Source: Bacilli bacterium | GTDB taxonomy: Bacteria > Bacillota_I > Bacilli_A > RF39 > UBA660 | Length of the DNA: 64,000 nt | Reading direction: 5' to 3' | Assembly (NCBI GenBank): GCA_017406955.1 | Contig: JAFQXM010000005.1 | Span: forward strand, 1-64,000 | In this document: in pieces, positions 34,087 to 48,729 of the stretch | How the letters are laid out: every line of letters begins with the position of its first letter | Numbering within the stretch: position 1 is the stretch's first letter | Made by a program: the position numbers and the translations under genes | Notes under the pieces: model-generated | The model's input: the letters and a program-made list of their open reading frames with translations, nothing else | The model's database searches: none | Told to the model about the DNA's origin: nothing

Positions 34087-36543
34087 ATGAAGAAGTATTT
34101 TATACTAATATTTGTTTTTATATTAATATTTTTTATTACGATTGATGTAGAAGCGAAAGAAGTAAAATCAGGAACTTACAAAATTGTTAGTGCTAATGAT
34201 GAAAGTAAACTTTTAGTTGAACAAAATGGAAATATTGAATTAGGTGATAATAGTAGTAGTAATAAAGAATGGAATATTTATTCAGATGGCTCTGCTTATT
34301 ACATAAAAAGTAAAATTGATAATAATTACGTGATAGATTTACAAGGAGCCAAAATAGCTAATAATACTAATGTTCAAGTGTATAAATCAAATGGAACAAG
34401 TGCACAAAAGTGGAAATTAAATGATGCAGGAAGTGGATATTACTATATTACTTCTATTTTAGGAAACTATAATATAGATGTAGTTGGTGGAAATTCTAAA
34501 ATTGGCACTAATATTCAAATATATAAGAATAATGAAACAAAAGCACAAAAGTGGAAATTAGTTAGAATAGATCAAAAAGAGAAAGTAATAGAAGATGGGA
34601 CATATATTGTGAAATGTAAAAACAATTTATCTAATGTAGTGGATTTATCTGGTGCTAAAACATCAAATTTTACAAATATCGGAACATATTTTAATAATTA
34701 TACTTGGGCTCAGGTATGGAACTTTAAATATAAAGATGGATATTATATTATTAATGCTTATTTAGATGATGATAAAGTTATAGATATAGCAAGTGCTAAA
34801 TATAAAAATTCAACTAATATACAACTATATCAAAATAATGGAACGAATGCTCAAAAGTTTATTATTAATAGTAATGGAGATGGAACATATTCCATAAATT
34901 CATATGATGGTTTATGGAGTGTTGATATAAAGGGTGCATCTACTAATTCAGGTACTAATATTCAACTATATCAATCAAATGGTACAGATGCACAAAAATA
35001 TGTTTTTGAAAAAGTTAATATTGATCCAATTGAAACAGGTTATTATACTATTGACTCACTAGTTGATAATAATATGGTAGTTGGTGTAAATAATTCTGCT
35101 TTGTATAATAAGAAAAATGTAGACTTACGAAATAAAACTAATCATAATTATGTCAAATGGTATATAAAGAAAGAAAAGTATGATATTTATACTATTCTTA
35201 ATGCAGATAATACTAAATATGCTTTGGATGTTTTAGGAGGATCTAATGTATCAGGTGCAAATGTCCAAGTGTACAAAGCAAATGGAACAAGTGCACAAAA
35301 ATGGGTTATTAGGAAAAATGATGATAATACATATAGAATAATAAATATTGCTAGTGGAAAATTATTAGATATATCAGGCGCAAAAAAAGATGAGGGAACT
35401 AATATTCAAATTTATGATTCTAATGAAACTGTTGCTCAAAAATTTGAATTTACTAAAACTGAAATTAGTAAATATATACGAGCATATGATGATGGGAAAT
35501 ACATTATAAAGAGTAATATAGATAATAATAAAGTATTAGATATAGCAAGTGCTTCTAAAAATAATAATGCTAATGTCCAGGTTTATGCAAGTAATTCTAC
35601 AAATGCACAAGTATGGAAATTGGAATATATAGAAGATGGTATATATATAATTAGAAGTCTTATAAATCCTAAATTAGTATTAACGGCCAACTCAAACAAT
35701 GCTGTTTCCGCTAAATATACTGGAAGTGATACTCAAAAATGGTATTTAGATAAAAATAGTAATTTCACTACTATTATAAATATGTCAAGCGGAAAGTATT
35801 TAAATATTGATTCAACCATGCCTGCTAATTCTACTAATGTATCATTAAGTGATACTATAACAGATAAAAATAAATTTGTATTAAGTAGTTTTACTGGTAA
35901 AATAAAATATAAAGGTGTTGATATATCTAAGCATAATACTATAACCTCTTGGGAACAACTTGCTTCACAAATAGATTTTGCAGTATTAAGAATCGGATAT
36001 GGAGGAGATGCAACATCTCAGGATGATCCAAAATTCTTATCATATGTACAAGCTTGTGAACAATATAACATTCCATATGCAGTTTATGTTTATTCATATG
36101 CAGTAGATGACAGTGAAGCAGTAGATGAATCAAATCATATGCTAAGACAAATTAGAAATAATGGTGCAAAACCAAATTTAGCAACACAAGTATATTATGA
36201 TCAAGAAGATACAACGTATGTAGATCAAACTAAAATTTCTAATGCTACTAGAACTAGTATGGTAAATACTTTCTGTAATAGAATGAAATCAAGTGGATAT
36301 AAATGTGGAGTTTACGCATCAAAATCTTGGTTAGAAGGAATGTTAGATATTAATGCTATTAAACCTACTCATGAAGTATGGGTTGCCCAATGGCCTGGAT
36401 ATTCAACTTTTACTCAAGGATTAGCTAATAGTACTTCATATCAAAAAACATCTTACAGTATTTGGCAATTTTCTGGAAGTGGTAATCTATCTGGTGTATC
36501 TGGGAGAATAGATCTAGATATTGGATATAATATATTTGATTAA
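34087..36543 (+). CDS. Secreted ricin-type lectin and GH25 lysozyme
   Basis: 818 residues. Signal peptide (about 1-22, ending VEA). Residues ~25-600 are ricin-B beta-trefoil repeats, each with a QxW-type motif (SAQKWKL, KAQKWKL, WAQVWNF, NAQKFII, SAQKWVI, NAQVWKL and others, about ten in total, so roughly three trefoils). From about residue 608 a GH25 muramidase domain begins with YKGVDISKHN (catalytic Asp), FAVLRIGYGG, VYYDQED (the DxE pair) and SIWQFSGSG near the end. It should cleave the glycan strand of peptidoglycan while the lectin part binds a glycan, possibly the organism's own wall polysaccharide. Confidence 0.93.
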   Translation: MKKYFILIFVFILIFFITIDVEAKEVKSGTYKIVSANDESKLLVEQNGNIELGDNSSSNKEWNIYSDGSAYYIKSKIDNNYVIDLQGAKIANNTNVQVYKSNGTSAQKWKLNDAGSGYYYITSILGNYNIDVVGGNSKIGTNIQIYKNNETKAQKWKLVRIDQKEKVIEDGTYIVKCKNNLSNVVDLSGAKTSNFTNIGTYFNNYTWAQVWNFKYKDGYYIINAYLDDDKVIDIASAKYKNSTNIQLYQNNGTNAQKFIINSNGDGTYSINSYDGLWSVDIKGASTNSGTNIQLYQSNGTDAQKYVFEKVNIDPIETGYYTIDSLVDNNMVVGVNNSALYNKKNVDLRNKTNHNYVKWYIKKEKYDIYTILNADNTKYALDVLGGSNVSGANVQVYKANGTSAQKWVIRKNDDNTYRIINIASGKLLDISGAKKDEGTNIQIYDSNETVAQKFEFTKTEISKYIRAYDDGKYIIKSNIDNNKVLDIASASKNNNANVQVYASNSTNAQVWKLEYIEDGIYIIRSLINPKLVLTANSNNAVSAKYTGSDTQKWYLDKNSNFTTIINMSSGKYLNIDSTMPANSTNVSLSDTITDKNKFVLSSFTGKIKYKGVDISKHNTITSWEQLASQIDFAVLRIGYGGDATSQDDPKFLSYVQACEQYNIPYAVYVYSYAVDDSEAVDESNHMLRQIRNNGAKPNLATQVYYDQEDTTYVDQTKISNATRTSMVNTFCNRMKSSGYKCGVYASKSWLEGMLDINAIKPTHEVWVAQWPGYSTFTQGLANSTSYQKTSYSIWQFSGSGNLSGVSGRIDLDIGYNIFD

Positions 36544-37550: not shown

Positions 37551-37583
37551 TGTCGAATGATTTATTTGATATCTTTTGTCGAA
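37551..37583 (+). promoter_or_regulatory. Pair of Spo0A boxes (0A boxes)
   Basis: TGTCGAA at 37551-37557 and again at 37577-37583, both exact matches to the Spo0A core, on the same strand with starts 26 bp apart. They lie 51-83 nt before the STAS gene. In Bacillus the spoIIA operon is controlled by Spo0A from such boxes. A possible -10 (TATAGT) lies about 30 bp downstream of the second box. Confidence 0.75.
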
Positions 37584-37633
37584 TAGGTATAAATTTTAAA
37601 AAATATATTCTATAGTCTAATAGAGGTGATATC

Positions 37634-37972
37634 ATGCTGGAATATACAACTGAAATAAATAAAGGAATAATGTTTATTAGATTAGAAGGTGAACTAAATA
37701 ATAATACATTTATTAACTTATATAATGAATTGGAATATTTACTTTATAGACAAGGTATACATTATTATGTATTTAATTTTAAATATTTAAAAATATTAGA
37801 TCAAAATATATTTATAAAAATACAAAATATATTGACAGAAATATTTTTAAGTTGTGGACAAGTTGTTATGTGTGGACTTAAAAATATTTGGAAGAAGAGA
37901 TTAGGTAGTTATTATAATAAATTATTTTATGTAAATAATGAAGTAGATGCATTTAAATACTTGAAAATATAG
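37634..37972 (+). CDS. spoIIAA: SpoIIAA-like STAS-domain protein lacking the phosphorylatable serine
   Basis: 112 residues, colinear with Bacillus SpoIIAA (117): RLEGELNNNT aligns with RLTGELDHHT, and the C-terminal half also aligns (GQVVMCGLKNIWKKRL). SpoIIAA normally frees sigma-F from the anti-sigma kinase SpoIIAB and is inactivated by phosphorylation of Ser58 in FMDSSGLGV. Here that site reads ILDQNIFIK (Asp56-Gln57-Asn58), so neither serine remains. The next gene, 8 nt downstream, is a sigma factor; no spoIIAB lies between them. The protein may act without phosphorylation control or may be degenerate. GAGGTGAT precedes the ATG, with two 0A boxes upstream. Confidence 0.72.
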   Translation: MLEYTTEINKGIMFIRLEGELNNNTFINLYNELEYLLYRQGIHYYVFNFKYLKILDQNIFIKIQNILTEIFLSCGQVVMCGLKNIWKKRLGSYYNKLFYVNNEVDAFKYLKI

Positions 37973-37980
37973 GTGATAAA

Positions 37981-38616
37981 ATGGATGATATATTAGAATA
38001 TGAAAGTTTAGTTTATGGTATTATAAATAAATATAAAAATTTTGATAGAGATGATTTATATCAAGTAGGAATGATAGGATTAATGGATGCGAAAAAGAAT
38101 TATAAAAAAGAAATTAATACTAAGTTTTCTACTTATGCATATTTTTATATAATGGGAAAAGTAAAAGAGTATATTAGAAAATCTAATCCATATAAGATAA
38201 GTAAAGATATAATAAAACTAAATAAAAGTATCGAAAAAGCTACTGATATAATGTCTCAAAGATTAGGTAGAAATCCTACAGACTTAGAGTTATCATTATT
38301 TTTAGAAATAGATGAACAAAAAATAATTGATACAAGATTAGCTTTACAAAATATAAAAAGTTTAGATTATTACTATGATGATGAAAATACAGATTTATAT
38401 AATTCTATTAAGATAGAAGATAAAAATACTAATAGTGATATACTAGATTTAAAAGAAGCTATTAATAAATTAAATGATGAAGATAAGAATTTAATAATAG
38501 ATAGATATTTTAATGATTTAACTCAAACAGAAATATCAAAAGAATTAGGTATGAGTCAAGTACAAGTATCTAGAAAAGAAACAAAAATATTACAAAAGTT
38601 AAAAGCAACTCTTTAG
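37981..38616 (+). CDS. sigF: Sporulation sigma factor, SigF/SigG type
   Basis: 211 residues with regions 2, 3 and 4. Region 2 (about 22-65) reads DDLYQVGMIGLMDA.., KFSTYAYFYIMGKVKEYIR. Region 3 contains SQRLGRNPTDLEL. Region 4 is LNDEDKNLIIDRYFNDLTQT then EISKELGMSQVQVSRKE, very close to the SigF/SigG sequence. It is about 40 residues shorter than Bacillus SigF, mainly at the N-terminus. Position after the SpoIIAA-like gene and upstream of spoVA genes fits spoIIAC (sigF). SigG cannot be excluded from sequence alone. GGTGATAAA precedes the ATG. Confidence 0.8.
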   Translation: MDDILEYESLVYGIINKYKNFDRDDLYQVGMIGLMDAKKNYKKEINTKFSTYAYFYIMGKVKEYIRKSNPYKISKDIIKLNKSIEKATDIMSQRLGRNPTDLELSLFLEIDEQKIIDTRLALQNIKSLDYYYDDENTDLYNSIKIEDKNTNSDILDLKEAINKLNDEDKNLIIDRYFNDLTQTEISKELGMSQVQVSRKETKILQKLKATL

Positions 38617-38671: not shown

Positions 38672-39448
38672 ATGAAAAATATAGCAGTAATAGTCGCAAG
38701 TGGAGTAGGATCTAGAATGGGTTTGGATATTCCAAAGCAATTTGTAAAGATTCCTATAGAACATGAAGGAAAAACAATAGATAATAAAGAAGTATTAACA
38801 TATACATTAGAAGCTTTTGAAAATCATCCATTAATAGATGGAATAGTAGTAGTGACATTAGAAGATTATAAAGAACATGTTGTAAAAGAATCTATTGATT
38901 ACAACATTAGTAAACTAATGAAAGTTGTAAGCGGTGGAAATACTGTTCAAGAATCATTAAGAAATGGTGTATTTAGTTTAGAAGATATTGCTCATGATGA
39001 TGATAATATTATTATTCATGATGGAGTAAGACCTATGGTTGATATAGATGTTTTAACAGATGTAATAAAAGTATGTTCTGAAAAAGGTAATGCAGTAACA
39101 TCACTACCTTATAATGAGCAAATATTTGTAATAGATGATAATAATACCAACACTACTAAAAAGTATATAAATAGAGACAAATTAAGAAGAGTTTCAACTC
39201 CACAAGCTTATAATTATAAAATAATAAATAATGCATATCATGAGGCATTTAATAAAGAAATAGGAATATATCCACCTTCATATACAAATACTATGATGGT
39301 AGATTTAGGATATTCTCTAAACTTTGCTTTAGGATCAGAAAAGAATATTAAATTAACTACTAAAGATGACATAATAACATTTAAATCTTTTAAGATTCAA
39401 GAATATGAAAAGAATAAAGCAAAAGAAAAGGTAAAGGTGAAAGAATAA
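38672..39448 (+). CDS. IspD/TarI-family cytidylyltransferase
   Basis: Transfers CMP from CTP to a sugar- or polyol-phosphate. 258 residues: VIVASGVGSRMGLDIPKQF, VVVTLEDYKEH, VSGGNTVQESLRNG and IIHDGVRPMVD, then the TPQAYNYKII loop; all are IspD/TarI motifs. It is longer than typical IspD and paired with a nucleotide-sugar epimerase (start overlaps its stop), which fits capsule-type CDP-polyol or CDP-sugar synthesis better than isoprenoid synthesis. The LicD protein at 30817 could use the product (inference). GGGAGG precedes the ATG. Confidence 0.82.
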   Translation: MKNIAVIVASGVGSRMGLDIPKQFVKIPIEHEGKTIDNKEVLTYTLEAFENHPLIDGIVVVTLEDYKEHVVKESIDYNISKLMKVVSGGNTVQESLRNGVFSLEDIAHDDDNIIIHDGVRPMVDIDVLTDVIKVCSEKGNAVTSLPYNEQIFVIDDNNTNTTKKYINRDKLRRVSTPQAYNYKIINNAYHEAFNKEIGIYPPSYTNTMMVDLGYSLNFALGSEKNIKLTTKDDIITFKSFKIQEYEKNKAKEKVKVKE

Positions 39449-40506
39449 TGGATTTACTTAATATAGAAGAATATAAAAATAGTATCATAGATTATTCTAA
39501 TTGTGATATTGATTGGAATATGTTAAAAAATAAAAATTTCTTAATATCAGGAGCTACTGGTATGATAGGAAAATGTTTGATTGATATTATAATGTATAAA
39601 AACGAAAAGGATAATTTAAATTGTAATATAATTGCTTTAGGTAGAAACAAAGAAAAAGCTAAAGATAGACTAGGTAATTATTTTGATAATAAGAATTTTA
39701 AGTTTATAGAATCTGATATAAATAAAGAAATAAATATTGAAGAAGATAATATAGATTATATATTACATGCAGCATCTTCTACACATCCTCTTCAATATTC
39801 AAATGATCCAATAGGAACAATTACTGCTAATGTTTTAGGTACATATAATTTACTTAACTTAGCATCTAAAAAAAATAATAAAAGATTTTTATTTGCATCT
39901 TCTGTAGAAGTATATGGCGAAAATAAAGGTGATACAGATAAATTTGATGAAAATTACTTAGGATATATTGATTGTAATACTTTAAGAGCTGGTTATCCTG
40001 AAAGTAAAAGAACAGGAGAAGCTTTATGTCAAGCTTTTATAAAACAAAAAGATATGGATATAGTAATTGCTAGATTATCTAGAGTTTTTGGACCTACTAT
40101 GTTAATGAGTGATTCAAAGGCTTCTTCTCAGTTTATTAAAAATGGTATTAATGAAGAAGATATTGTATTAAAAAGTGAAGGATTACAAAACTATTCTTAT
40201 AGTTATGTATTTGATGCTGTTATTGGAATGATGTTATGTTTAACTAAAGGTAAAATAGGAGAAGCTTATAATATAGGTTATGAAAAGTTTGATGTTACAT
40301 TAAGAGAATTTGCAAAAGCATGTGCTGATACTGCAAATAAAGAAGTAATATTTGATTTACCTGATGAAAATGAAAAAGCAGGATATTCAACTGCTACTAA
40401 AGCTTTATTAGATAGTAGTAAAATAGGTAAACTAGGATATAGAGTAAAAGATGACTTTACTAATCGAGTTAAAGAGACAATAAAAATCTTAAAGAAAATG
40501 AAATAA
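39448..40506 (+). CDS. NAD-dependent epimerase/dehydratase (extended SDR)
   Basis: 352 residues. Rossmann motif ISGATGMIGKCLID near residue 34, LHAASSTHP, FASSVEVYGE, the YPESKRTGE catalytic Tyr/Lys motif, IARLSRVFGP and YSYVFDAVIGM. The sequence resembles UDP-glucuronate decarboxylase and CDP-sugar enzymes but the substrate cannot be assigned. Overlaps the cytidylyltransferase by one base, implying a shared pathway. Followed by a terminator identical to the one before the pair. Confidence 0.85.
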   Translation: MDLLNIEEYKNSIIDYSNCDIDWNMLKNKNFLISGATGMIGKCLIDIIMYKNEKDNLNCNIIALGRNKEKAKDRLGNYFDNKNFKFIESDINKEINIEEDNIDYILHAASSTHPLQYSNDPIGTITANVLGTYNLLNLASKKNNKRFLFASSVEVYGENKGDTDKFDENYLGYIDCNTLRAGYPESKRTGEALCQAFIKQKDMDIVIARLSRVFGPTMLMSDSKASSQFIKNGINEEDIVLKSEGLQNYSYSYVFDAVIGMMLCLTKGKIGEAYNIGYEKFDVTLREFAKACADTANKEVIFDLPDENEKAGYSTATKALLDSSKIGKLGYRVKDDFTNRVKETIKILKKMK

Positions 40507-40539: not shown

Positions 40540-40581
40540 TATTAAATGAAATATATTGTAAATACTAATACTGGTGATTAT

Positions 40582-41022
40582 ATGAAAAATTATAAATATG
40601 AAACTATTGCTGATAAATATGGTCCAGATGAACATAGAGGTATGAATGCTATAATTTCTTTTTTAGTAGGAGGATTAATTGGATTATTAGGAGAAGGAAT
40701 TATAGAATTAATTTGTCATTTTACTAATATATCTAGGACTGATGCATCTACTTTTATGATAATTATTTTAATATTTATTGCTTCTTTATGTACTGCATTA
40801 GGTTTTTTTGATAAATTAGTTACTAAATTTAAATGTGGTATTTTAATACCTATTACAGGGTTTGCTCATTCTATGACTAGTTCTGCTTTAGAATATAAAA
40901 ATGAAGGATTTATATATGGAATAGGAGCTAATATATTTAAATTAGCTGGTTCTGTTATTTTATATGGAGTAGTATCTGCTTGGTTTTTTGCACTTATTAG
41001 ATTTTTATTAGGAGGAATATAA
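40582..41022 (+). CDS. spoVAC: Stage V sporulation protein SpoVAC
   Basis: Membrane component of the spore dipicolinate channel. 146 residues with about four helices. YGPDEHRGMNAIISFLVGGLIGLLGE matches the SpoVAC N-terminal pattern, and CGILIPITGFAHSMTSSALEY is the conserved central segment. ATG 40582 follows GGTGAT; an ATG at 40546 has no site. A possible forespore-type promoter (GTATTA ... AATACTA) lies just upstream but is weak. It is followed with a one-base overlap by spoVAD. Confidence 0.93.
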   Translation: MKNYKYETIADKYGPDEHRGMNAIISFLVGGLIGLLGEGIIELICHFTNISRTDASTFMIIILIFIASLCTALGFFDKLVTKFKCGILIPITGFAHSMTSSALEYKNEGFIYGIGANIFKLAGSVILYGVVSAWFFALIRFLLGGI

Positions 41023-42011
41023 TGACATTTAAATATAAGAATGTATATATAAAAGATACAGCTACTGTAGTAGGTCCTTATGAAAAGCAAGGCCCATTAA
41101 AGAAGTATTATGATAAGACATATGATGATTTATATTTTGGAGAAAAATCTTGGGAAAAAGCAGAAGTAAAATTAGTTAAAGAAAGTTTAAATATATTACA
41201 TAAAAAAACATCATTAAAAAAGGGTGAAGTAGATTTAATTGTAGGAGGCGACTTATTAAATCAAATTTCAGCAACTACCTATGGGGTAAAAGATTATTCT
41301 AATGCATTTTTAGGAACTTATAGTGCCTGTGCTACTAGTGTAGAAAGTATGATTATTGCGTCTTCTTTAATAGATTCTAAAAAAATAAATAATGCCATAG
41401 TAGAGGTGTCTTCTCATAATATGTCTGCAGAAAAGCAATATAGGAATCCTACAGAGTATGGAGCTCCTAAACCAAAGACTGCGACTTTTACTTGCACAGG
41501 TAGTGGATCTATATTACTTACTAATAAAAAAACAGATATTAAAGTAGAAAGTTCTACTATTGGTAAAATAATAGATTATAGTGAAAATGATCCTAATAAT
41601 ATGGGTAGAGTTATGGCACCTGCTGCTATAGATACAATAAAAAAACATCTAGATGATTTAAATAGAGATCCTGATTATTATGATTTAATTCTAACTGGAG
41701 ATTTAGGAGTATATGGAAAAGAAATATTAAAAGATTATATGAAGAGTGAATATAATATAGATTTAAATAATTATAATGATTGTGGAGTAATGATATATGA
41801 TTTATCTAAGCAAGAAGAATGTTTGGCTGGAGGAAGTGGTCCAGTATGTAGTGCTTTAGTAGGTTTTGGTTATTTATATAATGAATTAAAGAAGAAAAAG
41901 TTTAAAAGAGTATTATTAGTCGCAACAGGTGCACTATTTTCACCAACTATGATATATCAAAAAGAAAATATTTTTTCTATAGCGAATGCTATAAGTTTGG
42001 AGGTAGTATAA
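41022..42011 (+). CDS. spoVAD: Stage V sporulation protein SpoVAD
   Basis: Thiolase-fold protein that binds dipicolinate for uptake into the spore. 329 residues: VVGPYEKQGPLKKYYD, DLIVGGDLLNQISATTYG, TYSACATSVESMIIASSLI and YGAPKPKTATFTCTGSGS are SpoVAD signatures; GPVCSALVGFGYL follows. Normal length. Overlaps both neighbours by a base, so the three genes form one translation-coupled operon. Confidence 0.95.
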   Translation: MTFKYKNVYIKDTATVVGPYEKQGPLKKYYDKTYDDLYFGEKSWEKAEVKLVKESLNILHKKTSLKKGEVDLIVGGDLLNQISATTYGVKDYSNAFLGTYSACATSVESMIIASSLIDSKKINNAIVEVSSHNMSAEKQYRNPTEYGAPKPKTATFTCTGSGSILLTNKKTDIKVESSTIGKIIDYSENDPNNMGRVMAPAAIDTIKKHLDDLNRDPDYYDLILTGDLGVYGKEILKDYMKSEYNIDLNNYNDCGVMIYDLSKQEECLAGGSGPVCSALVGFGYLYNELKKKKFKRVLLVATGALFSPTMIYQKENIFSIANAISLEVV

Positions 42012-42361
42012 TGTTACTATTTAATTCTTTTATATTTTGTGGATTTATATGTATGATATCGCAAATAGTTTTAGATAATACAAAACTAACACCAGGACAT
42101 ATTACTAGTATATTAGTAGTAATAGGAGCATTTCTAGATAGTTTTTCTATATATGATAAGATAATAAAAATAGTAGGTGGAGGAGCAATGGTTCCAATTA
42201 CTAGTTTTGGTCATTCTCTAGCTCATGGAGCATTACTTAAAACTAATCAATATGGGCTAGTTGGTATACTTATGGGTATGTTTGATTTAACTGCTTCAGG
42301 TATAACAGCTGCTATAATATTTTCATTTATATTTACTTTAATATTTAAACCAAAAAATTAA
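42011..42361 (+). CDS. spoVAE: Stage V sporulation protein SpoVAE (SpoVAEb)
   Basis: 116 residues and three to four helices. ICMISQIVLDNTKLTPGHI, GGGAMVPITSFGHSLAHGAL and GLVGILMGMFDLTASGITAA correspond closely to Bacillus SpoVAEb. Completes the SpoVAC-AD-AEb core of the dipicolinate channel. SpoVAA, SpoVAB and SpoVAF are not encoded here. Ribosome site GGAGGTAG precedes the ATG. Confidence 0.94.
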   Translation: MLLFNSFIFCGFICMISQIVLDNTKLTPGHITSILVVIGAFLDSFSIYDKIIKIVGGGAMVPITSFGHSLAHGALLKTNQYGLVGILMGMFDLTASGITAAIIFSFIFTLIFKPKN

Positions 42362-47784: not shown

Positions 47785-48729
47785 ATGAATTTTGATTTCA
47801 GTTGGTTTTTAACAGTTCCAGGAATATTAATAACAGGAGGAGTTTTACTTTTAATTGTTGCTTTAATCATATTAATTGCAACATCTGGTAAGAAAAATAG
47901 TGAATATCAAGAAGTAGTAGAGGAAAATAGTGCTGATGCTAATGGTCAAGTTGCAGCAGAACAAAATATGGAGGCTCCAATGCCTGAAGCTGCAAATGCT
48001 AATGCAGTTCCTGAAATGGGACAACCACAGGTTAATCCTAATGATTCAATTATGAATATACCTGATCCAGTTATGGCTGCTCCAGCACCAGAAATGAATC
48101 CTGTAGAACCAGCTATGGATGTTAATCCAGTTGCTCAAGAACAACCAGCATTTGATCCACAAGTTGCTAATGTTGAACAGCCAGTAGGAGCACCAAGTAT
48201 GGAGCCAGTAGTTGAACAACCGGCAATCGAGCCAGTACAAGAAGCACCAAGTATGGAACCGGTAGTTGAACAACCAGCAATTGAGCCAGTACAAGAAGCA
48301 CCAAGTATGGAGCCAGTAGTTGAGCAACCAGCAATTGAATTAGCACCAGAAACACCAAGTATGGAGCCAGTGGTTGAACAACCAGCAATCCAACCATCAC
48401 CAGAAGCGCCAAGTATGGAGCCAGTTATAAATCAACCAACTATGGAATCAAACTCAATTCCAAATATAGATAATGGAGTGGGAGTACAAAATCCTACTGT
48501 TGAAAATGTAAATTCTAATCCAGTAGTTCCAGATGTTAGTAATGTACAACCACAACAAGAACAACCTCAAATATATGGTGGTGCTAATCCGTTAGAGAAT
48601 ACCCAATCAATACCAATTTCAAATATTGTTGGACCTAATGCTAATCAGGCACCAGTACAAACACCATCTGCTGAACCTACAATGGTTGATCCGCAAATAC
48701 AACCTGTACAACCAAATATACAACAATAA
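47785..48729 (+). CDS. Single-pass membrane protein with Pro/Glu-rich tandem repeats
   Basis: 314 residues, unknown function. A helix at about 14-34 is followed by a long acidic, Pro/Gln/Asn-rich disordered tail. Five 18-residue repeats of APSMEPVVEQPAIEPVQE type occupy about residues 136-225. Base composition is visibly less AT-rich over the repeats than in neighbouring genes. There is no signal cleavage site; the tail could face either side of the membrane. AAGGGAGTAG precedes the ATG. Confidence 0.8.
   Translation: MNFDFSWFLTVPGILITGGVLLLIVALIILIATSGKKNSEYQEVVEENSADANGQVAAEQNMEAPMPEAANANAVPEMGQPQVNPNDSIMNIPDPVMAAPAPEMNPVEPAMDVNPVAQEQPAFDPQVANVEQPVGAPSMEPVVEQPAIEPVQEAPSMEPVVEQPAIEPVQEAPSMEPVVEQPAIELAPETPSMEPVVEQPAIQPSPEAPSMEPVINQPTMESNSIPNIDNGVGVQNPTVENVNSNPVVPDVSNVQPQQEQPQIYGGANPLENTQSIPISNIVGPNANQAPVQTPSAEPTMVDPQIQPVQPNIQQ
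48190..48459 (+). repeat. Five tandem 54-bp repeats (coding)
   Basis: Units begin at 48190, 48244, 48298, 48352 and 48406, each encoding an 18-residue Pro/Glu-rich motif. The first three are nearly identical; the last is diverged. Confidence 0.9.

Follow-up and report, generated by a model that had tools for sequence, protein, structure and literature searches.

How is the forespore sigma factor sigma-F controlled when its operon carries no anti-sigma kinase? The classical spoIIA operon has the order spoIIAA–spoIIAB–sigF, and the switch formed by SpoIIE, SpoIIAB and SpoIIAA is a textbook case of bacterial cell-fate control. In the window (the whole 64,000-nucleotide stretch of contig JAFQXM010000005.1 analysed here), a gene for a STAS protein and a gene for a sigma factor are both open, follow each other directly and lie 8 nt apart, which leaves no space for spoIIAB, as the original prediction had it. 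Both reading frames have good ribosome-binding sites (aGAGGTGatatcATG for the STAS gene and taGGTGAtaaaATG for the sigma gene). The span first singled out, 37551–38616, does contain the gene pair, but its start at 37551 is intergenic and lies inside the first of two Spo0A boxes (Table 1). The source genome (1.14 Mb, Bacilli, completeness 93.7%) comes from a family of small-genome gut Bacilli, probably of the order RF39, to which ‘the window's family’ refers throughout.

Table 1 Features of the spoIIA–spoVA locus and of its surroundings in the window
Feature	Position	Strand	Basis or remark
Gene for an 818-aa protein with a GH25-like (lysozyme) domain at its C-terminus and ricin-type repeats	34087..36543		Adjoins a long surface-glycan gene cluster
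Spo0A box 1, TTTGTCGAA	37549..37557	+	Exact match; box conserved upstream in relatives
Spo0A box 2, TTTGTCGAA	37575..37583	+	26 bp after box 1; exact spacing recurs among related operons
STAS protein derived from SpoIIAA, 112 aa, D-Q-N-I	37634..37972	+	Profiles, alignment, AlphaFold2, omega
sigF-type sporulation sigma factor, 211 aa, shortened N-terminus	37981..38616	+	Profiles, synteny
IspD-like cytidylyltransferase and NAD-dependent epimerase/dehydratase	38672..40506		Looks like a local insertion
spoVAC (probable start 40582)	40546..41022	+	TIGR02838, E=6e-43
spoVAD	41022..42011	+	NF006160, 421.6 bits, cut-off 402
spoVAE	42011..42361	+	TIGR02839, 139.4 bits, cut-off 131.1
Fragment resembling the C-terminal part of an IS3-type transposase, 75 aa	42508..42735	-	Between spoVAE and scpA
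Membrane-anchored protein with near-perfect tandem repeats	47785..48729		Repeat EAPSMEPVVEQPAIEPVQ

The spoVAC, spoVAD and spoVAE genes are the downstream part of the ancestral spoIIA–spoVA cluster, and relatives show the order sigF–spoVAC–spoVAD. The spoVA core was expected to be intact and is present, but two unrelated genes (ispD-like and epimerase) that are absent in most relatives separate it from sigF. Because most relatives have spoVAC directly after sigF, this segment has the look of a local insertion.

The sigma factor of the window has SigB/F/G-type regions 2–4 and is distinct from the SigG of the same genome, which is encoded separately beside YunB. It matches the SigBFG (TIGR02980, E=2.8e-46) and SigF (TIGR02885, E=2e-43, 148.8 bits) profiles, both below the curated cut-off (321.45 for SigF), and is identified as sigF by the synteny of spoIIA and spoVA and by co-occurrence with SpoIIR. 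Sigma-F has diverged further than the other sporulation sigma factors of the genome (149 of 321 bits, whereas SigG passes one of its own cut-offs with 389 of 372 bits). Most relatives retain 27 of the 30 sigma-F positions that are conserved in outgroups, and the N-terminus is about 20 residues shorter in the window's family than in outgroups. The divergence and the short N-terminus might be a consequence of the loss of SpoIIAB as a partner.

The STAS protein scores weakly against the profiles for SpoIIAA (TIGR02886, E=1.2e-4, 22 bits, with a curated cut-off of 114.75) and for the STAS domain (PF01740, 19 bits, under the cut-off of 22.6). The doubt that these scores raise is resolved by structure: the best PDB matches of an AlphaFold2 model (pLDDT 88, pTM 0.80) are the SpoIIAA chains of the SpoIIAB:SpoIIAA crystals 1th8, 1til and 1tid (TM 0.80–0.85), and the protein is accordingly modelled with a SpoIIAA-type fold despite its weak profile scores. 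In the alignment, D-Q-N-I falls on D57-S58-S59-G60 of SpoIIAA; the phospho-serine is therefore a Gln in the window's STAS protein, and the D-S-[STA]-G phosphosite of SpoIIAA is missing. Judged from this alignment, which agrees with the first reading of the site, the protein can no longer serve as a SpoIIAB-type phospho-switch. A search of the source genome for a second STAS protein found none. Second STAS copies occur elsewhere in the window's family, at G129:C44:2456-2779, with an in-frame stop, and at G145:C15:10407-10637.

A partner-switching module consists of a HATPase anti-sigma kinase, a PP2C phosphatase and a phosphorylatable STAS protein; here, the kinase and the phosphatase are absent and the serine is lost. 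SpoIIAB (TIGR01925) was found above the cut-off in none of 288 genomes of the window's family. Among the sub-threshold matches listed, scores reach at most 47 bits and fall in frames of 191–731 aa that are typical of histidine kinases, and we rejected a hidden SpoIIAB among these weak ATPase matches because the frames are long and histidine-kinase-like. Of 395 genomes across the class, 72 have a SpoIIAB match above the cut-off of the same profile, and all 72 lie outside the window's family. In the source genome, we found neither a protein matching HATPase_c_2 (PF13581) nor a cognate SpoIIAB.

The SpoIIE domain is present in 4 of 141 genomes of the window's family and is not found in the source genome. 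Two strong matches, in G099 and G122, are PP2C proteins of 625–632 aa; their length and a HATPase-like tail led us to reject them as SpoIIE. These proteins of about 630 aa with a SpoIIE-type PP2C domain (loci L075 and L074, respectively) occur in 2 of 141 genomes of the window's family; in the one that we checked, that of L074, the PP2C domain is fused to a C-terminal HATPase_c_2. The searches proposed in the original prediction thus returned neither a SpoIIAB/RsbW-type HATPase nor SpoIIE from the source genome; a second canonical SpoIIAA was likewise not found there, and no relative within the window's family has spoIIAB at the locus.

We identified STAS relatives in 98 of 145 genomes of the window's family. 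Both genes were located in 94 genomes, and STAS immediately precedes sigF in all but one of them, where an unrelated gene stands in between; in the other 93, at most 204 nt separate the match ends, a gap too short for spoIIAB. About 94 genera show this arrangement. We therefore rejected an assembly artefact, and a strain-specific deletion of spoIIAB was rejected because the absence is family-wide. Ser58 is kept in 8 of 104 aligned STAS relatives and lost in the other 96, with N, E, K, L, M, I, Q and other residues in its place. The adjacency of the STAS and sigma genes, which the original prediction proposed to check in relatives, is thus conserved, and the replacement residues vary beyond the Gln or Asn that it asked about. 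Bacilli that keep SpoIIAB have the gene order AA–AB–sigF, and Ser58 is present in all of their SpoIIAA proteins (29 of 29, all D-S-[STA]-G). Among the STAS matches that we inspected across the class sample, a pair without the kinase gene was seen only in the window's family. The missing kinase and the lost serine are a trait of the whole family, beyond one strain; the joint loss of kinase and target that had been proposed is real, and SpoIIE has been lost as well.

The 64-kb window has only two exact copies of TTTGTCGAA (0.13 expected), and both lie in the 93-bp gap that precedes the STAS gene. Searching for TGNCGAA within about 200 nt before the first reading frame of the operon, we found at least one box ahead of 112 of 122 related operons. 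Of these operons, 109 have it in the forward orientation, compared with 4.4 in shuffles and 12.7 in random same-strand windows of the same loci. The boxes of relatives share the consensus TTTTGTCGAA, and a spacing of 26 bp is found 16 times among the related operons. Of 18 loci without a STAS gene, 17 have a Spo0A box immediately ahead of sigF. Spo0A itself is encoded in 126 of 137 genomes of the window's family; the window's operon, with 0A boxes upstream and Spo0A in the same genome, has the marks of a Spo0A-controlled operon, and Spo0A is predicted to bind its boxes. The spoIIA operon of Bacillus subtilis is likewise regulated by Spo0A (PMC8256260), and control by Spo0A would therefore have been retained rather than newly acquired.

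Selection has kept the STAS gene. Pairwise Nei–Gojobori estimates of omega (single estimates, with STAS and sigF measured in the same pairs) are 0.05–0.36 for STAS and 0.09–0.22 for sigF. Like sigF, STAS evolves under purifying selection, which excludes random decay and supports the original suggestion of a simplified or re-wired switch. None of the 98 STAS matches has an internal stop. What real decay looks like can be seen outside the window's family, in a SpoIIAA pseudogene that is interrupted by three stop codons, one TGA and two TAA (G377:C15:16077-16379).

The STAS gene has nevertheless been lost repeatedly. Of 25 genera without a phmmer match, nine proved to have a divergent STAS gene that was recovered with a family profile, which left 16 genera in which sigF is kept but a profile search of the locus detects no STAS gene. 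Three more loci lack STAS (L031, L034 and L037; L034 matches G131). Cases in or near the window's genus are L031 (sigma factor 88% identical) and G069 (64%), in which the order is still lipid kinase–sigF–spoVAC. Separately, at L034:7563-7904 and L037:3118-3459 (and in G131), a 114-aa gene without a Pfam match occupies the STAS position, and a Spo0A box lies between this gene and sigF. On the sigF tree, the presence and absence of STAS require about 15 changes, which we read as mostly losses (about 14) because SpoIIAA is ancestral. The sixteen STAS-less genomes keep SpoIVA (16 of 16), SpoIIR (15 of 16) and Spo0A (15 of 16). The STAS gene is thus selected yet dispensable, and its repeated loss with sigF retained weakens the case for STAS as an essential gatekeeper of sigma-F.

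The remaining sporulation genes are largely in place. The source genome encodes Spo0A, SpoIIGA with SigE, SigG with YunB, SigK, SpoIIR, SpoIVA and SpoVAC, SpoVAD and SpoVAE. Across the window's family, SpoIIR is present in 119 and SpoIVA in 116 of 137 genomes. Retention or loss of sigF and SpoIIR goes together (118/3/1/15; Fisher p=3e-16, uncorrected for phylogeny), and some members of the family have lost sigF, SpoIIR and SpoIVA jointly.

We consider it probable that the partner switch has been dismantled, that sigma-F is now controlled mainly by Spo0A-driven transcription and that the STAS protein has been retained as a phosphorylation-independent, dispensable regulator. The locus would be the spoIIA operon of a Bacilli family that, as predicted from its genes, looks competent for sporulation. 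SpoIIAB, the anti-sigma kinase, and SpoIIE, the phosphatase, have been lost, and the descendant of SpoIIAA is, by its sequence, no longer phosphorylatable at the Ser58 site. As the kinase, the phosphatase and the phospho-acceptor are gone, control would fall mainly to transcription of the operon, whose timing and amount, via Spo0A on one or two conserved 0A boxes, would set sigma-F activity. The STAS protein, fixed in the unphosphorylated form, would act as a selected but non-essential fine regulator, and its likeliest targets would be Spo0A activation, as negative feedback on its own operon, or sigma-F itself.

Spo0A-driven transcription precedes the polar septum, so Spo0A alone would be insufficient for forespore-specific sigma-F. 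Signalling by SpoIIR and SpoIIGA presupposes forespore-specific sigma-F, and because both proteins are retained, some spatial control of sigma-F should exist. A tentative and less probable alternative is that sigma-F is controlled without a partner switch by the STAS protein itself, which, locked in its unphosphorylated form, would bind sigma-F (or Spo0A) directly, with compartment specificity arising through an undescribed mechanism.

How the STAS protein acts can be read in two ways. It may leave sigma-F alone and act on Spo0A activation, as a negative feedback on the operon that encodes it. In B. subtilis, SpoIIAA reportedly inhibits the activation of Spo0A (Arabolaza et al. 2003, cited in PMC8256260), the STAS operon carries Spo0A boxes and such a modulator could be repeatedly lost; the argument is by analogy with B. 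subtilis, however, where the inhibited step is poorly defined, and we hold this reading to be possible but on the unlikely side. Rather doubtful is a direct action on sigma-F, as an anti-sigma factor or chaperone, which would make the pair a kinase-free two-protein switch. The strict adjacency of STAS and sigF (93 of 94), the shared operon with its Spo0A boxes, the purifying selection on STAS and the lost phosphosite, which locks the protein in one state, are all consistent with such a switch, but STAS has been repeatedly and cleanly lost while sigF and the sporulation genes remain. Moreover, a mirror-tree comparison gave a partial correlation of 0.17 for STAS and sigF, compared with 0.28 for the neighbouring control spoVAC, and thus no excess co-divergence, although this is a weak test. 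A read-through STAS–sigF fusion of a relative was modelled with a pTM of 0.35, without confident docking, from a shallow alignment of 22 sequences and with a short linker, and is likewise a weak test. An unrelated anti-sigma factor, not recognised by sequence, may also act on sigma-F.

That the operon is vestigial, with STAS and sigma-F decaying in a lineage that is losing sporulation, is improbable. Genome reduction, the low score of sigF (149 of 321 bits, with SigG passing at 389 of 372) and the joint loss of sigF, SpoIIR and SpoIVA in some members of the window's family would fit. Selection and co-occurrence already contradict this reading: omega of STAS and sigF is 0.05–0.36, none of the 98 STAS matches has a stop, the source genome keeps the full sigma cascade with SpoIIGA, SpoIIR and SpoIVA (SpoIIR and SpoIVA in most of the family), the Spo0A boxes are conserved, and true decay looks different, as in the G377 remnant of SpoIIAA with its three stops. 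Replacement of SpoIIAB by another HATPase protein is very improbable: histidine-kinase-type ATPases are present and two genomes have the PP2C protein with a HATPase-like tail, but the source genome has no PF13581 match, the substrate serine is gone in 92% of relatives and the PP2C protein is confined to those 2 of 141 genomes.

The dismantled switch can be set against what has been described. A 2024 survey of RF39 found spoIIAB and spoIIE to be reduced or absent, with spoIIGA and others retained, and predicted spores with markedly different regulation (PMC10868615); its main text makes no mention of spoIIAA, the phosphosite, the spoIIAA–sigF pair, Spo0A boxes or repeated STAS losses. In the open-access PMC literature, we found no description of a SpoIIAA–sigF pair without SpoIIAB, and none of its altered phosphosite, of the boxes for Spo0A or of the recurrent disappearance of STAS. 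The lack of spoIIAB and spoIIE in RF39 is therefore already known (PMC10868615), and the remainder appears to be new.

Counting against our reading, the SpoMAG predictor gives RF39 metagenome-assembled genomes a 0% probability of sporulation, although it treats spoIIAB as one of the universal genes (PMC12536801). If these uncultured bacteria do sporulate, predictors that demand spoIIAB would miscall them as asporogenous. The switch is listed as universal in spore-formers, and the window's family has discarded it and kept the whole downstream cascade, including SpoIIR–SpoIIGA signalling. The family thus offers a natural experiment on whether the switch is needed, why, and what the minimal forespore programme is.

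As in the spoIIA system of B. subtilis, a STAS gene whose product has the SpoIIAA fold immediately precedes sigF, Spo0A boxes head the operon and spoVA genes lie downstream, with SpoIIR–SpoIIGA–SigE, SigG and SigK encoded elsewhere. Unlike the SpoIIE/SpoIIAB/SpoIIAA switch of B. subtilis, the system here has neither spoIIAB nor SpoIIE, the phospho-serine is replaced and the STAS gene is dispensable. The non-canonical proteins SypA, BtrV and RbaV resemble the STAS protein in consisting of a STAS domain only and in that their unphosphorylated form is thought to be active on partners besides a sigma-holding kinase; these proteins retain the serine and the cognate kinase and phosphatase, whereas the source genome has lost all three (PMC8256260). 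Galperin et al. (2012) listed spoIIAA, spoIIAB, sigF and spoIIE for every spore-former among the bacilli and clostridia (PMC3533761). Their minimal set, which includes Candidatus Arthromitus, shares with the window's family four sigma factors, Spo0A, SpoIIGA and SpoIIR in small genomes, but the streamlined Arthromitus, unlike the window's family, still has spoIIAB and spoIIE (PMC3533761).
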